DNA of 64,000 nt, from the NCBI GenBank assembly GCA_016871675.1, contig VHCN01000010.1:1-64000 (forward strand), given 5' to 3'. The notes under the pieces were generated by a model that saw only the letters and a list, made by a program, of their open reading frames with translations, searched no databases and was not told the origin of the DNA. Shown one piece after another: positions 43,829-57,521 of this stretch. Both the position numbers and the translations under genes were made by a program. Source of the DNA: Verrucomicrobiota bacterium (GTDB lineage Bacteria; Verrucomicrobiota; Verrucomicrobiia; Limisphaerales; VHCN01). Numbering within the stretch: position 1 is the first letter of the stretch; every line of letters begins with the position of its first letter.

Positions 43829-46800
43829 ATGAGCCAGTCACAGACGAGCACCCAGGCCCGCTGGCACGGCCTCCCGCCCAAGCAGGGCCTTTACGATCCG
43901 CGGTTCGAGCATGACGCGTGCGGCGTCGGCTTCGTCGTGAACATCAAAGGGAAGAAGTCGCATGAGATTTTGCGGCAGGGCGTCCAGATCCTGGTCAACC
44001 TCGACCATCGCGGCGCGTGCGGATGCGAGCCGAACACGGGCGACGGCGCGGGCGTGCTGTTCCAGATTCCGCACAAGTTTTTCCAGAAGGTCGCCACCGC
44101 GCACGACTTCGAACTGCCCGCGCCCGGCCGCTACGGCGTGGCGATGATCTACATGACGAAGAAGTCGGATGACCGCCACCATTGCGAGCGGATCTTCGAG
44201 CGGGTGGTGCGCGAGGAAGGGCAGACGGTGCTCGGCTGGCGCACGGTGCCGACGGACAACTCGACGCTCGGCGCGACCGCGCGCGCGGCCGAGCCGTTCG
44301 TCCGCCAGTGCTTCATCGGCCGCAACACGCGCAAGGCGCGCGACGAGCAGACGTTCGAGCGCAAGCTGTTCATCATCCGCAAGCGCGCCCTCACCGAGAT
44401 CCGCAACTCCGGCGAGCGCGGCACGCAGTGGTGGTATGTGCCGAGCATTTCGTGCCGCACGATCGTTTACAAGGGCATGCTCATGCCGGGGCAGGTGGAC
44501 CATTATTATCCCGACCTGCGCGACCCGGACATGGAGACGGCGCTGGCGCTGGTGCACTCGCGCTTCTCGACGAACACCTTCCCGAGCTGGGAGCGCGCGC
44601 ACCCGTATCGCTACCTCGCGCACAACGGCGAGATCAACACGCTCCGCGGCAACATCAACTGGATGCACGCGCGCCAGGCGATGTTCGAGTCGGACGTCTT
44701 CGGCAAGGACATCAACAAGATCTTCCCCATCATCAACCCGAACGGCTCGGACTCCTCGATGTTCGACAACTGCCTCGAACTGCTCGTGCTCGCCGGCCGC
44801 CCGCTGCCGCACGCAATGATGATGATGATCCCCGAGCCGTGGACGAACCACGAGTCCATGAGCGACGAGCGCAAGGCGTTTTACGAATACCACTCGTGCC
44901 TGATGGAGCCGTGGGATGGTCCGGCCTCGATTGCGTTCACCGACGGCGTTCAAATCGGCGCGTGCCTTGACCGCAACGGGCTGCGGCCTTCGCGCTACTA
45001 CGTCACCAAGGACGACCTCGTGGTGATGGCGAGCGAAGTCGGCGTGCTCGACATCGCGCCGGAGCGCGTGTTGCAAAAGGGCCGCCTCCAGCCCGGCCGC
45101 ATGTTTCTTGTGGACACCGCGCAGGGCCGCATCATCGCCGACGAGGAGATCAAGGACTCCATCGCCAAGGCGCAGCCGTATCGCCAGTGGATCAACGAGA
45201 ACATGGTCGAGCTCGACAAGCTGCCCGACGCGCCGCACGTGCCCGAGCCCGACCACAACACGGTGCTGCACCGGCAGATGGCGTTCGGCTACACGTTCGA
45301 GGACTTGCGGCTGCTGATGGTCCCGATGGCGCGCGACGGCGTGGAGGCCGTCGGCTCGATGGGCACGGACACCCCGCTCGCGGTGCTCTCGCAGAAGCCG
45401 CAGTTGCTCTACACTTATTTCAAGCAGCTCTTCGCGCAGGTCACCAACCCGCCGATTGACTGCATCCGCGAGGAAATTGTCACCTCGACCGAGACGACCA
45501 TCGGCTCCGAGCGCAGCCTGCTCAAGCCCGAGGCCGAGAGCTGCCGGCTCATCGAGCTCAAGCAGCCCATCCTCAGCAACGAGGAGTTTGCGAAGCTCAA
45601 GCACCTCAACCATCCGCACTTCAAGTCCGCCACGCTGCCGATCCTCTTCAAGGCGGGCGAGGGACCCGGCGGCTTGGAGAAGGCGATGGACGACTTGTGC
45701 GAGGCCGCGACGAAGGCCATCAAGGACGGCGCGAACGTGCTCATCCTCTCCGACCGCGGCGTGAACAAGGACAACGCGCCCATCCCCGCGCTGCTCGCGG
45801 TCGCCGGCGTGCATCATCATCTCATCCGCGAGGGCACGCGCACGCGCACCGGACTCGTGCTCGAATCCGGCGAGCCGCGCGAGGTGCACCACTACTCGCT
45901 GCTCATCGGCTACGGCTGCGGCGCGATCAATCCGTATCTCGCTTACGAGACGCTCGACGACCTCATCCAGCAGGGCTTGCTCACCGGCATCAATCACAAG
46001 ACCGCGGTGAAGAACTACACGAAGGCGGCCGTGAAAGGCGTCGTGAAGGTGACGTCCAAGATGGGCATCAGCACCATCCAGAGTTACCGCGGCGCGCAGA
46101 TCTTCGAGGCCATCGGCCTCAACGACGCGGTCATAGACAAGTATTTCACCTGGACGCCCTCGCGCGTCGGCGGCATCGGCATCGAAGCCATCGGCAGGGA
46201 AGTGCTCACGCGGCACGAGCACGCGTTCCCCGACCGCCCGGCGAACGGGCACGCGCTCGACGTGGGCGGCCAGTATCAGTGGCGCGCGGACGGCGAGCTG
46301 CACCTCTTCAATCCGCAGACCGTCCACAAGCTGCAGAAGGCCGTTCGCAACAACGATTACAAGACCTTCAAGGAATACTCCGCGCTCGTGAACTCGCAGA
46401 TGCGCGACCTCTACACGCTGCGCGGGCTGCTGGAGTTCAAGCCGGCGACGGCCATCCCGATCGGGCTGGTCGAGCCCGTCGAGAGCATCATGCGGCGCTT
46501 CAAGTCGGGCGCGATGAGCTACGGCTCCATCAGCGGCGAGGCGCACGAGACCCTCGCCATCGCGATGAACCGCATCGGCGGCAAATCCAACACCGGCGAA
46601 GGCGGCGAGGATCCCGCGCGCTACGCGTGGACCAACGACCGCGGCGACTCGAAGAATTCCGCGATCAAGCAGGTCGCGAGCGGGCGCTTCGGCGTCACGA
46701 GCCTTTACCTCACGCACGCGAAGGAACTGCAAATCAAGATGGCGCAGGGCGCGAAGCCCGGCGAAGGCGGCCAGCTTCCCGGCGGCAAGGTGTATCCGTG

Positions 46801-48457
46801 GATCGCGCGCGTCCGCCACTCGACACCCGGGGTCGGACTCATTTCACCGCCGCCGCATCACGACATCTATTCCATCGAGGACCTCGCGGAACTCATCCAC
46901 GACCTCAAGAACTCGAACCGCGAGGCGCGCATCAGCGTCAAGCTCGTCGCCGAAGTCGGCGTGGGCACCGTCGCCGCGGGCGTCGCGAAGGCGCACGCGG
47001 ATGTCGTGCTCATCAGCGGTTACGACGGCGGCACGGGCGCATCGCCGCAGACGAGCATCAAGCACGCGGGCATTCCGTGGGAACTCGGCCTCGCCGAGAC
47101 GCACCAGACGCTCGTGCTGAACAACCTGCGCGCGCGCATCGCGGTCGAGACCGATGGCCAGCTCAAGACCGGTCGCGACGTCATCCTCGCCGCGCTGCTT
47201 GGCGCGGAGGAGTTCGGCTTCGCCACCGGCCCGCTCGTCGCCATGGGCTGCATCATGATGCGCGTCTGCCATCTGAACACCTGCCCGGTCGGCGTGGCCA
47301 CGCAGGATCCGCGGTTGCGCGGCCTCTTCCCCGGCAAGCCCGAGGACGTGGTGAATTTCATGACCTTCATCGCGCAGGAAGTCCGCGAGCTGATGGCGCA
47401 GCTCGGCTTCCGCACGATCAACGAGATGATCGGTCGCGTGGACGTGCTCGAGCCGCGCAAGGCCGTCGAGCATTGGAAGGCGCGCGGGCTGGACTTCAGC
47501 AACATCCTGCACTCACCCGACGTGCATCTCAGCGTCGGGCGCTACTGCCAGGTGCCGCAGGAACACGGCCTCGAGAAGTCTCTCGACATGACGATCCTAC
47601 TCGACCTGTGCAAGCCCGCGATTGAGAAGCGGGAAAAGGTGGTGGTGCAGTTGCCGATTCGGAACACGAATCGCGTCGTCGGCACGATCCTCGGCAACGA
47701 AATCACCAAGCGCCACGGCGCGGGGGGTTTGCCCGAGGACACCATTCAGCTTCACTTCAAGGGGTCGGCGGGACAGAGCCTCGCCGCGTTCGTGCCGGGC
47801 GGTGTCACCATCCGCCTCGAAGGCGACGCCAACGATTATTGCGGCAAGGGACTGAGCGGCGGCCGGCTCATCATCTATCCGCCCGGCGGCTCCACGTTCC
47901 GCGCGGAGCACAACATCATCGTCGGCAATGTGGCGCTCTATGGCGCGACGGGCGGCGAGGCGTTCATCCGCGGCATGGCGGGCGAGCGCTTCGGTGTGCG
48001 CAACTCCGGCGTGTGCACGGTCGTCGAGGCCGTCGGCGACCACGGCTGCGAATACATGACCGGCGGCACCGTGGTCGTGCTCGGCAGGACGGGCCGCAAC
48101 TTCGCGGCGGGCATGAGCGGCGGCGTCGCCTACGTGCTTGATGAGGACGGCGACTTCGCCCGGCGCTGCAACATGCAGATGGTCGGCTTGGAGCGCATCG
48201 AGGGCCGCGACGAGTCGAACGCGGTGCGCGACTTGATCGAGCGGCACGTGATCTACACCGGCAGCGAGCGCGGCCGCAACGTGCTTGCGATGTGGCAGGC
48301 CATCGTGCCGAAGTTCGTGAAGGTGATGCCCAAGGACTACAAGCGCGTGCTGGCTTCGCTGAAGAAGGCCGAGGCGGCGGGACTCACCGGCGACGACGCC
48401 CTCACCGCCGCGTTCGAGGAGAACTCGAAGGACGCCGCGCGCGTGGGCGGCGGTTGA
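43829..48457 (+). CDS. gltB: Glutamate synthase large subunit
   Basis: GltB, 1542 residues, makes two glutamates from glutamine and 2-oxoglutarate with the GltD partner. The class II glutaminase nucleophile is C31 ([20 protein letters not shown]), exposed after propeptide removal. The synthase/FMN barrel follows. The 3Fe-4S cysteines are C1141, C1147 and C1152 ([14 protein letters not shown]5-C-X4-C). The C-terminal GXGXG beta-helix domain is clear ([32 protein letters not shown]). gltD follows 65 bases downstream. No regulatory gene is adjacent. Confidence 0.97.
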
Positions 48458-48522
48458 TGCGATGACCTTCTGGCCGACCGTCAACCGAGCGGAAACCCCC
48501 GCACCGATTCTCAACCACTGAC

Positions 48523-50007
48523 ATGGGCAAACCCACCGGATTCCTTGAATTCACGCGGCAGCTTCCCGCCGACCGCGAACCGCTCGTGCGCACCGCCGAC
48601 TGGCGCGAGTTTCACGACCCCATGCCGGAGCCCAAGCTCCGCGAGCAGGGCGCGCGCTGCATGGATTGCGGCGTGCCCTTCTGCCACACCGGCCAGCTCC
48701 TCAGCGGCATGGCCAGCGGCTGCCCCATCAACAACCTCATCCCGGAGTGGAACGACCTCATCTATCGCGGCCTCTGGCAGGAGGCCCTCGAACGCCTGCA
48801 CAAGACAAACAACTTCCCCGAGTTCACCGGCCGCGTCTGCCCCGCGCCGTGCGAAGGCTCCTGCGTGCTCGGCCTCAGCGCGCCGCCCGTCACGATCAAG
48901 AACATCGAGAATGCAATCATTGACCGCGGCTGGGACGAAGGCTGGGTCAAACCCGAGCCGCCCGCCACGCGCACCGGCAAGAAAGTCGCCGTCGTCGGCT
49001 CGGGTCCCGCCGGCCTCAGCGCCGCCGCGCAACTCAACCGCGTCGGCCACCGCGTGCTCGTCTTCGAGCGCGCCGACCGCCCCGGCGGCCTGCTCATGTA
49101 TGGCATCCCCAACATGAAACTCGACAAGAACGAGGTCGTGCTGCGCCGCCTCAAGCTGATGGAGGAGGAGGGCATCAAGTTCGTCTGCAACTGCGAAGTC
49201 GGCAAAGACCTCACCACCAAGCAGCTCATGGAGGAGTTCGACGCCGTCGTGCTCGCCACCGGCGCGACCAAGCCGCGCGACCTGCCGATCGAGGGCCGCC
49301 AGCTCAAGGGCGTCCACTTCGCGATGGAGTTCCTGCACAACAACACCAAGGCGCTTCTCGACCAGCACAAGAACGGCAGCTTCATCACGGCCGGGGGCAA
49401 GGACGTCGTCGTCATCGGCGGCGGCGACACCGGCACCGACTGCGTCGGCACCGCGATGCGGCACGGATGCAAGAGCCTTGTGCAGGTGGAAATTCTTCCC
49501 AAGCCGCCGCTGGACCGTGCCAAAGACAACCCCTGGCCTGAATGGCCCAGGACCTACAAGCTCGACTACGGGCAGGAGGAAGCTGCGGCGAAGTTTGGCG
49601 CCGATCCGCGCGTGTATCTCACCACGGCGACGAAGTTCGAGGGCGACGAGAACGGTCAGGTCAAAGCCGTTCACCTCATCAACGTCGAGTGGTCCCGCAA
49701 CGAGAAAGGGCAGTTCATCCCGAAGAACATCCCGGGCACTGAACGCGTCCTTCCCGCGCAACTCGTCCTGCTGGCGATGGGCTTCCTCGGACCCGAGCAG
49801 CCGCTCCTCGAAGCCCTCGGCGTCGAGCGCGACCCGCGTTCCAACGTGAAGGCCGACCACGGCAAATTCCAGACCAGCCTGCCGAACGTCTTCGCCGCGG
49901 GCGACTGCCGTCGCGGCCAGAGCCTCGTCGTCTGGGCCTTCAACGAAGGCCGCGGCGCCGCGCGCGAGTGCGACCGCTACCTGATGGGCGCGACGAACCT
50001 GCCCTGA
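48523..50007 (+). CDS. gltD: Glutamate synthase small subunit
   Basis: GltD, 494 residues, the FAD/NADPH subunit that feeds electrons to GltB through Fe-S clusters. The N-terminal cysteines for two 4Fe-4S clusters are present: [44 protein letters not shown]. The first nucleotide-binding motif is [14 protein letters not shown] and the second [15 protein letters not shown]. The end ([27 protein letters not shown]) is typical. ATG 48523 ([15 protein letters not shown]) is the natural start. About 290 bases of unannotated sequence follow. Confidence 0.97.
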
Positions 50008-50951: not shown

Positions 50952-53188
<2,237 letters not shown>

Positions 53189-53246
53189 GGCGTGTGGGCG
53201 GGGATTGCCCGGGCTTTGATGGTCGCCACTGTGGGCGCGTCTCCCG

Positions 53247-53270
53247 CCATTGGCAATTCGAAATCCGGCC
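53247..53270. repeat. AATTCG/AATCCGG mini-repeat tract
   Basis: CCATTGGCAATTCGAAATCC followed by GG, degenerate units of the CAATTCG/AAATCCG heptad, in the gap between divergent DUF1501 and luxE-like genes. Confidence 0.35.
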
Positions 53271-53378
53271 GGTGCCCGGCAGCGGGGTGCATCCGATTTC
53301 CCGCTCGACTTGGGTCCGGGTGCGCGGAAGATGCGCGGCACGGCTGTCGCGGAAAACCAGCCGCGAATCAAACACCGC

Positions 53379-54452
53379 ATGACTTGCCCGGATTCCCTTC
53401 ACGCACTGGCTTCCGACGTTCGCGCGCTGATGCGCAGCCCGGGGGCGAGCGATGCAGCCTTTTCCGGACTTGCCCTGCGCCTCTATGCGGCGCAGTCGCA
53501 CGCCAATCCACCCTACCGGCGCCTGGGCGGGCAGCGCGGGCTCCCGGCATCGGGTGTCGCCTCGTGGCGCGACATCCCGGCGGTGCCCGCGTGCGCGTTC
53601 AGGGAGTTTGAGTTCTCGTGCCTCGAACCCGCGGACCGGACCGCCGTCTTCCACTCGAGCGGCACCACGGGCGCAACGCCGAGCCGCCACTTCCACGGGC
53701 GCGACTCGCTCGCGCTCTACGACGATTCCGCATGGCACTGGTTCGAAGGTTGCGTGAGACCGGCGGAACGGAGCCGGCTTTTCATTCTCACGCCGCCGCC
53801 GGCCGCCGCGCCGCACTCCTCGCTGGTCCGCATGTTCGACACGGTGCGGCGCAAGCTGTCCGCGGGTGACGCGTGTTTCCACGGTCGCGCCGACTCGGCC
53901 GGGGCGTGGCACCTGGATTTGGAACCGCTCGCGGATTCCCTCGCCGCGTCGGCGGCGGCGGAGCTGCCGGCGCTTGTTCTCGGCACGGCGTTTTCATTCG
54001 TTCACCTGCTGGACGGGCTCGCCGGCGCGGGACGCCGCGTGGCGCTTGCCCCCGGTTCGCGCGTGATGGAAACGGGCGGTTACAAGGGCCGCTCCCGCGA
54101 GCTTGCGCCGGGCCGGTTGCACGAGATCATGACGCGGCAACTCGGCGTCGCTCCGCGCGACATCGTGCGCGAATACGGCATGAGCGAACTCAGCTCGCAG
54201 GCCTACGGCGGCGCGGCCGGCGGCGGGTTCCGCTTTCCGCCGTGGGCGCGCGCGCTCGTGGTGTCGCCCGAGACGGGACGGGAGGTGGCCGAGGGTGAAA
54301 CCGGCTTGCTCCGCGTGGTGGACCTCGCCAACGTCTGGTCGGTGATGGCGATTCAAACGGAGGACCTCGCGGTGAGGCGCGGCTCCGGGTTCGAGCTGGT
54401 GGGACGCGCTGCGCCCGCCGAGCCGCGCGGCTGTTCGCTGATGGCGGCCTGA
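53379..54452 (+). CDS. LuxE-like acyl-protein synthetase
   Basis: A 357-residue protein of the LuxE / acyl-protein synthetase family (adenylating superfamily), which activates fatty acids as acyl-AMP and passes the acyl group to a cysteine of its own. Motifs: HSSGTTGATPSRHFH (nucleotide-binding loop, near residue 90), METGGYKGRSREL, REYGMSELSSQAYG, and a C-terminal RGCSL whose C352 matches the acyl-carrying cysteine on the swinging arm of LuxE. ATG 53379 is the likely start. One base separates it from the MFS gene, and LuxC follows next, so it should form an acid-reducing unit without luciferase genes. Confidence 0.88.
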   Translation: MTCPDSLHALASDVRALMRSPGASDAAFSGLALRLYAAQSHANPPYRRLGGQRGLPASGVASWRDIPAVPACAFREFEFSCLEPADRTAVFHSSGTTGATPSRHFHGRDSLALYDDSAWHWFEGCVRPAERSRLFILTPPPAAAPHSSLVRMFDTVRRKLSAGDACFHGRADSAGAWHLDLEPLADSLAASAAAELPALVLGTAFSFVHLLDGLAGAGRRVALAPGSRVMETGGYKGRSRELAPGRLHEIMTRQLGVAPRDIVREYGMSELSSQAYGGAAGGGFRFPPWARALVVSPETGREVAEGETGLLRVVDLANVWSVMAIQTEDLAVRRGSGFELVGRAAPAEPRGCSLMAA

Positions 54453-54453
54453 C

Positions 54454-55737
54454 ATGAGCCCGGCGCCCCATCGCTCCCGCACGCTTGCGCTCGCCGCGGT
54501 GCTGCATGCCTTCACGCACATCTACCAGGTGGCGCTCATGCCGCTTTACCTGCCGATCGTCGCAGACCTCAAGCTCGAGGGAGAAGGTCAGGCGACGCTG
54601 CTGGTGACGGTGATGCTCGTGGCGTATTTCGGGCCCGCGTATCCGGTCGGGATGCTCGCGGACAAATTCAGCCGCACGACCCTGCTTGGCTGGGGCCTGC
54701 TGCTCAACGCCGTGGCTTTCATCGCGCTCGCCTTCGCGCCGAACTACGCCGTCGCGCTCGCCTGCGTCGCGGTGTCGGGCGTGGGCGGCAGCTTTTTCCA
54801 TCCGTCGGCGACGGCGCTCGTGGCGCAGCTCTACCCGGTGGGGACCGGCCGCGCGCTCGGCCTGCTCGGCGTGGGTGCGAGCCTCGGGTTCTTCGTTGGG
54901 CCGCTGTTTTCCGGTTGGCGCGCGGAGACCACGGGCAGTTGGCGCGCGCCGGTGCTCGAACTCGGCGTGCTGGGCGTGGTGATGGCCGGCGTGTTTGCGT
55001 GGGTTGCGAGGGAAGTGCGCGCCACGGGTGCTTCCACGAAGGAGCCGCCGCGGCCGGTCCCGGCCCGGATGTTCAACACGCGCGCGGCGTGGGTGCTGTT
55101 CGTCGGGGCGGCGCTGGCGTTTGGGCTGCGGGATTTCGCGGGTCACGGGATGGCCAGCCTCGGCTCGCTGTTTCTGCAGAAGGCGCACGCGTTCTCGGTG
55201 AAGGAAGTCGGCGCGGCGCTCGGCGCGATGTATCTGCTCTCGGCCCTGAGCAACCCGATCTTCGGCCACTTCAGCGACCGCGGGCGGATTCGATGGACGT
55301 GCGCCGTGCTCTTGGCGAGCGCGGCGCTCATCGCGGTGTATCCGCACCTCGCGCGCGGCGGGCTGGTGCCGGTGTTTCTGCTGTATGGATTCTTCCTCAT
55401 GGCGAGCTACCCGATGGTCGAGGCGGCGTTGATGGAGTCGGTGCCGGACTCGGTGCGCGGGCGGGTGTTCGGCCTGTTCATCACCATCGGCGGCATGGTG
55501 GGCAACACCTCGCACGCGCTCGCGGGCCGGCTCGTGGAAAACCTCGGCCCGCGCGCCTCGGACCCGCCCGCCTACTTCAGCGTGTATGCGGGACTTTCCG
55601 GTTTGATGGTCATCTCGCTTGCGGGCCTCGCGTGCCTGCACTGGCTGCGGCGCGCGGAGCAGGCGGCCCGCGATGCCGGCGGTCGCGGGCCGGCCGTCCT
55701 GCCTTCCACCGCGGGCGAACCATCCGCCGCCTCATGA
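54454..55737 (+). CDS. Major facilitator superfamily transporter
   Basis: A 427-residue MFS permease, about 12 helices. The first half has LPIVADLKLEGEGQATLLVTVMLVAYFGPAYPVGMLADKFSRTTLLG (the loop 2-3 motif is GMLADKFSR), then VSGVGGSFFHPSATALVAQLYPVGTGRALGL, similar to the fosmidomycin-resistance (Fsr) group. The gene is sandwiched between luxE-like (1 base) and luxC-like (4-base ATGA overlap) genes. That implies coordinated expression, and perhaps export of the aldehyde or a product made from it. The substrate is unknown. Confidence 0.87.
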   Translation: MSPAPHRSRTLALAAVLHAFTHIYQVALMPLYLPIVADLKLEGEGQATLLVTVMLVAYFGPAYPVGMLADKFSRTTLLGWGLLLNAVAFIALAFAPNYAVALACVAVSGVGGSFFHPSATALVAQLYPVGTGRALGLLGVGASLGFFVGPLFSGWRAETTGSWRAPVLELGVLGVVMAGVFAWVAREVRATGASTKEPPRPVPARMFNTRAAWVLFVGAALAFGLRDFAGHGMASLGSLFLQKAHAFSVKEVGAALGAMYLLSALSNPIFGHFSDRGRIRWTCAVLLASAALIAVYPHLARGGLVPVFLLYGFFLMASYPMVEAALMESVPDSVRGRVFGLFITIGGMVGNTSHALAGRLVENLGPRASDPPAYFSVYAGLSGLMVISLAGLACLHWLRRAEQAARDAGGRGPAVLPSTAGEPSAAS

Positions 55738-57095
55738 CGCTGCCCAATTATTTCCTGGCCGACCTGCCGGTGGGGACGGTCTTCAGCGCGGAGATGATCC
55801 GCGAGGCGTGCCTCACGTTGAAGCGCAACCGGCTTCAATACCTTGCCGTGCGCCGCACGCAGAGCCTGGTCCGCGCGCTCATCCTCACGGCGGAAAACTG
55901 GCTGGACGACGAGTTCCCGCTGCGCCGGCTTGCCGCGCAGGAGGGCCCCGCGCAGACGGGGTTTTCGCAGGCCACGCTGATGGGCGGGCTCGACGCGTAT
56001 TTCAAGCAGCTCAACGGCGAGCATATCGAGTCGCTGCTGCTGCAGGAGCTCGGGCATTTGCAGCGCCTCGACGGGATGGCGTCGCCGCCGAACGAGCACC
56101 GCTCGCAGCGCTTCGCGATGGCCACCGGGCCGGACCTGCTGGTGCACATCACCGGCGGGCTTGTGCCCAATCCGGTCATCAACAACCTCGTGCTCGGCCT
56201 GCTGCTGCGCTCGGCGCAGTTCGTCAAGTGCGCGCGCGGGACGTCGTTCATCCCGCGCCTCTTCGCGCATGCGTTGCGGCAGACCGAGGCCAAACTTGGC
56301 GCGTGCATCGAGATCGCCGAGTGGCCCGGCGGCACCGAGGAACTCGAGCGCGAGCTGTTTTCGCAGGCCCGGTGCGTCACCGTGATGGGTTCGGACGAAA
56401 CCCTGCAGGCCGTCCGGCAGAAACTCCCGCCGCGCGTCAGCTTCGTCGGCTACGGCCACCGCGTCAGCTTCGGCTACATCACGCGCGAAGCGCTCAGCGG
56501 CTGGCGCTTCAAGAAAATCGTCGCGGCCGCGGCGGACGACGTGACCGCGTGGAACCAGCTCGGCTGCCTCTCGCCGCACGCGTTTTACGTCGAGGACAAC
56601 GCGACCGGCGACGCGGAGCAGTTCGCGTCGCAGCTCGCCGCGGAGCTCGACCGCCGCGAAGCCGCCGAGCCGCGCGGACCGGTGGATGCCGGGGCCGCGT
56701 CGCGCATCGCGATGATGCGCGGCTTCTATGAAGTCCGGCAGGCGCACAGCCTCGGCACGCGCCAGTGGGCCAGCGAGGGTTCGACCGCGTGGACGGTGAT
56801 TTTCGAGGTGGACCCGCGCTTTCAAGTGTCCTGCCTGAACCGGTTCATCTACGTGAAGGCCACGCCCGGCTTGAAGGAAGCGCTCGAGGGCGTGGACCGT
56901 TTCCAGGGGCAAGTCTCGACGGTCGGCGTGGCGGCGGGCGAGACCGAGCTCGAGGAAATCGCGGCGCAACTGGCGCACTGGGGCGTCACGCGCATCTGCC
57001 CGCTCGGCCGGATGCAGCACCCGCCGCTCACATGGCGTCACGACGGCCGTCCGCCGCTCGGCGACCTGGTGACATGGACCGATTGGGAACAGTGA
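55734..57095 (+). CDS. LuxC-like acyl-CoA reductase
   Basis: A 453-residue protein of the LuxC family (PF05893-type), which reduces an acyl thioester to an aldehyde with NADPH. The start ATG overlaps the MFS stop (ATGA). The conserved segments include VHITGGLVPNPVINNLVLGLLLRSAQFVKCARGTSFIPRLFAHAL, CVTVMGSDETLQAVR, RVSFVGYGHRVSFGYI, the nucleophile C278 in WNQLGCLSPHAFYVED, and a C-terminal WGVTRICPLGRMQHPPLTWRHDGRPPLGDLVTW, where LGRMQxPPLxWxHDG is strongly family-like. With the LuxE-like protein it would convert a fatty acid to a fatty aldehyde. No LuxA, LuxB or LuxD is present in the window. Confidence 0.9.
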   Translation: MTLPNYFLADLPVGTVFSAEMIREACLTLKRNRLQYLAVRRTQSLVRALILTAENWLDDEFPLRRLAAQEGPAQTGFSQATLMGGLDAYFKQLNGEHIESLLLQELGHLQRLDGMASPPNEHRSQRFAMATGPDLLVHITGGLVPNPVINNLVLGLLLRSAQFVKCARGTSFIPRLFAHALRQTEAKLGACIEIAEWPGGTEELERELFSQARCVTVMGSDETLQAVRQKLPPRVSFVGYGHRVSFGYITREALSGWRFKKIVAAAADDVTAWNQLGCLSPHAFYVEDNATGDAEQFASQLAAELDRREAAEPRGPVDAGAASRIAMMRGFYEVRQAHSLGTRQWASEGSTAWTVIFEVDPRFQVSCLNRFIYVKATPGLKEALEGVDRFQGQVSTVGVAAGETELEEIAAQLAHWGVTRICPLGRMQHPPLTWRHDGRPPLGDLVTWTDWEQ

Positions 57096-57158: not shown

Positions 57159-57521
57159 ATGCACATCGAACTTCGCAAAACATTTCAGTTTGAAGCCGCG
57201 CACCTCCTGCCCGGGCTGCCCGAGGCGCACAAGTGCCGGCGCCTTCATGGCCACAGTTTCATGGTGGACGTGGTGGTCGCGGGCGAATGCGACCCGAAGC
57301 TCGGGTGGCTGATGGATTACGCGGACATCTCGGCCGCGTTCAAGCCGCTCTGGGAACAGCTCGACCACCGCTACCTCAACGACGTGCCCGGCCTCGACAA
57401 CCCGACCAGCGAACGGATTGCGGTGTGGATTTGGGACCGCCTCAAGCCGGCGATGCCGCTGCTTCGCGAAGTTGTGGTCGCGGAGACCTGCACCGCGCGG
57501 GCGGTCTATCGTGGCGGGTAG
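57159..57521 (+). CDS. queD: 6-carboxy-5,6,7,8-tetrahydropterin synthase (QueD)
   Basis: QueD, 120 residues, converts 7,8-dihydroneopterin triphosphate to 6-carboxytetrahydropterin for queuosine. ATG 57159 is chosen because the family begins [19 protein letters not shown]. Zinc ligands: H15 (EAAHLL), H30 and H32 (RLHGHSF); the catalytic cysteine is C26 ([10 protein letters not shown]). [47 protein letters not shown] and [11 protein letters not shown] complete the fold. No other queuosine gene is adjacent. Confidence 0.95.

Follow-up and report, generated by a model that had tools for sequence, protein, structure and literature searches.

The 64,000-nucleotide window analysed here (positions 1 to 64,000 of the forward strand of contig VHCN01000010.1, assembly GCA_016871675.1) came from a bacterium of the Limisphaerales (Verrucomicrobiota; Verrucomicrobia subdivision 3). 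It contained an operon encoding a LuxE-like protein, a major facilitator superfamily (MFS) transporter, a LuxC-like protein and QueD. Homology, gene order and gene content make it very probable that LuxE and LuxC, together with a class III (omega-type) aminotransferase (AT), form an undescribed acid-to-aldehyde-to-amine route to preQ1, which replaces QueC and QueF. The route would be core to the Limisphaerales, and luxE-luxC-AT cassettes were found in several other phyla. The operon genes were located as follows:

53379-54452, + strand: LuxE-like adenylating acyl-transferase; weak PF04443 match; orthologue profile against 7xc6_E, 9e-21; C352
54454-55737, + strand: MFS transporter, optional operon member; PF07690, 160 bits
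55734-57095, + strand: LuxC-like thioester reductase; PF05893, 210 bits; orthologue profile against 7xc6_A, 1e-20; C278
57159-57521, + strand: QueD (6-carboxytetrahydropterin synthase, PTPS-I type); TIGR03367, 104 bits; CRRLHGH

A first-pass annotation had described the first three genes, and its coordinates, the 1-base gap between luxE and the MFS gene (C at 54453) and the ATGA overlap between the MFS gene and luxC (55734-55737) were all exact. The fourth gene, queD, was absent from that account; it started 63 bp behind luxC.

Family searches showed that the LuxC-like protein, with a score of 210 bits, was well above the PF05893 cut-off of 21, and that the LuxE-like protein matched PF04443 at 22.6 bits, under the cut-off of 24.9. 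The orthologue profiles were compared with the solved Photobacterium LuxE-LuxC complex (PDB 7xc6); LuxE matched chain 7xc6_E across 345 positions (E 9e-21) and LuxC matched chain 7xc6_A (E 1e-20). The cysteine C352 of LuxE (RGCSL) was present in 27/27 orthologues and aligned with the GCSL cysteine of 7xc6_E; C278 of LuxC (GCLSPH) was present in 24/24 orthologues and aligned with the corresponding cysteine of 7xc6_A. The retained catalytic cysteines of the first-pass annotation were thus properly aligned with the 7xc6 chains, and its view of LuxE and LuxC as an acid-to-aldehyde module unrelated to light was judged right. Like the fatty-acid reductase of luminous bacteria, the pair was a homologous two-protein acid reductase with both cysteines and adjacent genes. 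In contrast to the luminous system, luxD and luxAB were absent here, the LuxE and LuxC equivalogs were not reached (NF052244, 27 bits against a cut-off of 550; NF052251, 40 bits against 750), and the partners were queD, queE and an aminotransferase rather than luciferase.

Named relatives within the clade of the luxE tree identified the order as Limisphaerales. Of its 154 good genomes, 148 carried a luxC orthologue. The genome of the window encoded one LuxC above the family cut-off, and no viral copies were found. Comparison of 40 Limisphaerales loci from many families showed that luxE lay upstream of luxC in 39 and queD downstream in 38; after luxE, queD is the most constant partner of luxC. 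Within 6 kb, no gene from outside the luxE/MFS/luxC/queD block recurred in more than 9 of 41 loci, and the linkage is therefore not explained by general synteny. The MFS gene stood between luxE and luxC in 19/40 loci and was missing from 21, so it is an optional part of the operon. The expected position of the transporter between the two enzymes was therefore seen in some relatives but not always. Its nearest solved relative was NorA (1.5e-14), and our guess is that it perhaps moves a 7-deazaguanine base.

The only characterised homologues of the two enzymes are lux fatty-acid reductase subunits, and LuxE and LuxC might accordingly make a fatty aldehyde (for an ether lipid, wax or signal) that the MFS protein exports, with queD as a bystander. 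The 19 loci with the MFS gene inside the operon fit this explanation; the 21 without it do not. In addition, queD follows luxC in 38/40 loci despite otherwise unconserved neighbourhoods, both proteins are far under the NCBI equivalog cut-offs, and both the queE-AT-luxE-luxC-queD clusters and the anti-correlation with QueF described below argue against it. Fatty-acid reduction is considered very unlikely. The dedicated exporter and the fatty-aldehyde or alcohol product proposed in the first-pass annotation were not upheld, as the constant partners were queD and, encoded in trans in the genome of the window but in cis in other lineages, queE and the class III aminotransferase.

The textbook route leads from the FolE product through QueD and QueE to 7-carboxy-7-deazaguanine (CDG); QueC converts CDG to preQ0, QueF converts preQ0 to preQ1, and tRNA-guanine transglycosylase (TGT) inserts preQ1 into tRNA. 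The QueD of the window (57159-57521) exceeded the TIGR03367 equivalog cut-off (104 bits against 89.25) and carried CRRLHGH; the CxxxHGH motif is diagnostic of QueD/PTPS-I (PMC5041015). The genome of the window was searched for QueC, QueF, QueE and TGT. Neither QueC nor QueF (real QueF being above 90 bits) was found in it, and among 58 Limisphaerales genomes QueC occurred in 8 and QueF in 7, all 7 of which also had QueC. Bacterial TGT was present in the genome of the window (516 bits) and in 55 of the 58 genomes, including all 40 good ones. QueE was located at L173:9180-9914 (- strand), its closest model being TIGR04349 (257 bits, cut-off 300). The presence of QueD without QueC, the near-universal TGT and an AT orthologue led to the hypothesis that CDG is converted to preQ1 by LuxE, LuxC and AT.

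The distribution of QueF was anti-correlated with that of the module. QueF was found in 2/45 Limisphaerales genomes with LuxC and AT against 5/13 others (Fisher 0.0045, uncorrected for relatedness). Among genomes outside the order, QueF was found in 0/9 that had separate luxE-luxC genes and in 10/11 that had no LuxC (Fisher 1e-4, again uncorrected for relatedness), the sole QueF-less genome among these 11 being a 0.9 Mb genome. The luxE-luxC-positive genomes outside the order belonged to seven families; the family of G536, one of these genomes, also included QueF-bearing, LuxC-free genomes. The QueC and QueF counts come from within the phylum Verrucomicrobiota.

Some other roles for the pathway genes were tried and rejected. 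The textbook queuosine route was ruled out in the genome of the window by the lack of QueC and QueF, a folate bypass via PTPS-III by the CxxxHGH motif and by FolB in 56/58 genomes, and a tetrahydrobiopterin-type cofactor by the finding of a biopterin-dependent hydroxylase in 1/58 genomes.

Outside the Limisphaerales, luxE-luxC pairs were rare in the phylum (15/336 genomes); they also occurred in Myxococcota, Elusimicrobiota, Omnitrophota, Armatimonadota, Planctomycetota, KSB1 and Gemmatimonadota. The class III aminotransferase gene directly adjoined luxE or luxC in most of these other phyla (Gemmatimonadota being the exception), and its junctions with luxE-luxC there were often overlaps of 4-11 nt. 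Minus-strand shadow ORFs of GC-rich loci were disregarded in this neighbour clustering. An AT orthologue (58% identical) was found in the genome of the window (G000:C41) and in most other Limisphaerales genomes. The pyridoxal phosphate (PLP) lysine K275 was conserved in 20/20 sequences. None of the curated equivalogs was reached by AT, and its nearest solved relatives were gamma-aminobutyrate (GABA) and putrescine aminotransferases, enzymes that convert primary amines to aldehydes and back.

The linkage of QueE with AT, the existence of joined clusters in other lineages and the absence of QueF were three predictions set down before being checked. Directly upstream of AT and on the same strand, queE was found in 17/20 Limisphaerales loci, including that of the genome of the window. 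At locus L160, queE-AT-luxE-luxC-queD stood in a row on one strand, with gaps of +99, +43, +110 and -11 (a luxC/queD overlap). L106 and L140 had the same row plus one antisense insertion, and queE-AT-luxE-luxC was present in L094, L098, L102 and L103. The queA gene lay beside luxE-luxC-queD in one relative only (L081).

The proposed route would start like the textbook one, with QueD and QueE turning the FolE product into CDG. LuxE would activate the CDG carboxylate with ATP (adenylation) and hold the thioester on Cys352; the acyl group would then move to Cys278 of LuxC, where reduction by NAD(P)H would give 7-formyl-7-deazaguanine. The PLP-dependent AT, whose gene stands behind queE at L173 in the genome of the window, would convert this aldehyde to 7-aminomethyl-7-deazaguanine (preQ1), which TGT would put into tRNA. 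We infer the roles of LuxE, LuxC and AT from the known chemistry of their families. CDG is the predicted substrate because of the company of QueD, QueE, TGT and QueA and the missing QueC and QueF. Most module genomes lack QueC and QueF yet have TGT, which suggests that the substrate is a 7-deazaguanine carboxylate and the product preQ1; a carboxyl-to-aminomethyl change on CDG gives exactly preQ1.

The proposed route would share with the canonical FolE-QueD-QueE-QueC-QueF-TGT pathway the first steps (QueD, QueE), the last step (TGT) and probably the product, preQ1. It differs in the absence of QueC and QueF from most genomes; instead of an amide/nitrile and nitrile reduction, the carboxylate would pass through an aldehyde and transamination. 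The same logic of acid activation, aldehyde formation and class III transamination is found where LysJ-type or PigE-type aminotransferases follow a carboxylate reductase, whereas here AT reaches no curated equivalog, and activation and reduction would fall to Lux-type enzymes. In the open-access papers searched, neither a route to preQ1 via an aldehyde and a transaminase nor LuxE/LuxC in Verrucomicrobia was found.

The adjacency of queD and the lack of QueC in most genomes would also fit a reduction by LuxE and LuxC of the QueD product itself, 6-carboxytetrahydropterin, to a new pterin aldehyde or amine, for example a cofactor. However, such a reduction would use up the carboxylate that QueE needs, and queE clusters with AT, luxE and luxC. 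The near-universal TGT would be left without a precursor, FolB in 56/58 genomes leaves no need of a folate bypass, and a biopterin-dependent hydroxylase is present in just one of the 58. A pterin product is thus extremely unlikely.

A further explanation keeps CDG as the substrate. The module would make another 7-deazaguanine product from it (a secondary metabolite or DNA base), and tRNA queuosine would depend on salvaged preQ1 or queuine. Bases of this kind also occur in DNA modification and antibiotics (PMC13329287, PMC6884629), and TGT-positive genomes without QueC and QueF are currently classed as preQ1 salvagers (PMC6593275). Nevertheless, the module behaves as a near-universal, single-copy core gene of the order, which suits a role in tRNA better than one in secondary metabolism. 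In L081 queA is next to the cluster, and outside the order the module exchanges with QueF (0/9 against 10/11), whose product is preQ1. Another CDG-derived product is therefore unlikely.

Several observations weigh against the proposed route to preQ1. Both routes were present in G003 and G035 (LuxC, AT and QueF), and eight genomes had neither a complete LuxC and AT set nor QueF, several of them being incomplete metagenome-assembled genomes (MAGs); the genomes as a whole were mostly draft MAGs. Methylacidiphilum-like loci had no queD beside luxC. The luxE-luxC pairs of Gemmatimonadota had no que gene within 6 kb. A preQ1 riboswitch was found neither at the Rfam gathering score in 12 loci nor at E<=1 in the window segment.

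Some Limisphaerales had, in addition, a queD-queE-queC-queF cluster of its own location whose QueD was divergent and which was possibly acquired (G003:C67 in L091, G035:C313 in L090 and G039:C161 in L088); in G003 and G035 it stands alongside the LuxE/LuxC route. At G047:C89:5718-8165 (L089), queC was found with a divergent PTPS gene and a weak FolE/QueF-like match but no true QueF, and this locus may serve another 7-deazaguanine product. Fused LuxE-LuxC proteins of about 830-840 aa were encoded at L080:3740-6229 (- strand) and L082:4432-6954 (+ strand) in the related genomes G628 and G456; both genomes keep QueF, and the fused proteins probably act on another substrate.

In Gemmatimonadota, luxE-luxC was preceded by a gene for a conserved protein of about 90-115 aa that is probably helical (L110, L115, L118, L137, L142, L146, L148, L155, L161, L162, L165 and L167). 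The LuxE tree placed MAGs titled 'Methylacidimicrobium' and 'Akkermansia muciniphila' inside Limisphaerales and 'Gammaproteobacteria' MAGs inside Gemmatimonadota (L151, L163, L115 and L165). In the window, the longest ORF of a divergent DUF1501 gene (51785-53380, - strand) abutted the luxE start, and gltB and gltD-like genes lay farther upstream (43829-50007, + strand).

Bacteria produce queuosine, and both they and eukaryotes use it. Genomes with TGT that lack QueC and QueF are now read as non-makers of queuosine that depend on salvage (PMC6593275). If the proposed route is true, an order whose bacteria are common in soil and water, plus members of several other phyla, would make queuosine themselves, and annotation as 'LuxE', 'LuxC' or 'aminotransferase' would in many cases be wrong. 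Lux-type acid reductases would have a non-luminous role on a heterocyclic acid and, together with AT, would constitute a carboxyl-to-aminomethyl enzyme set.

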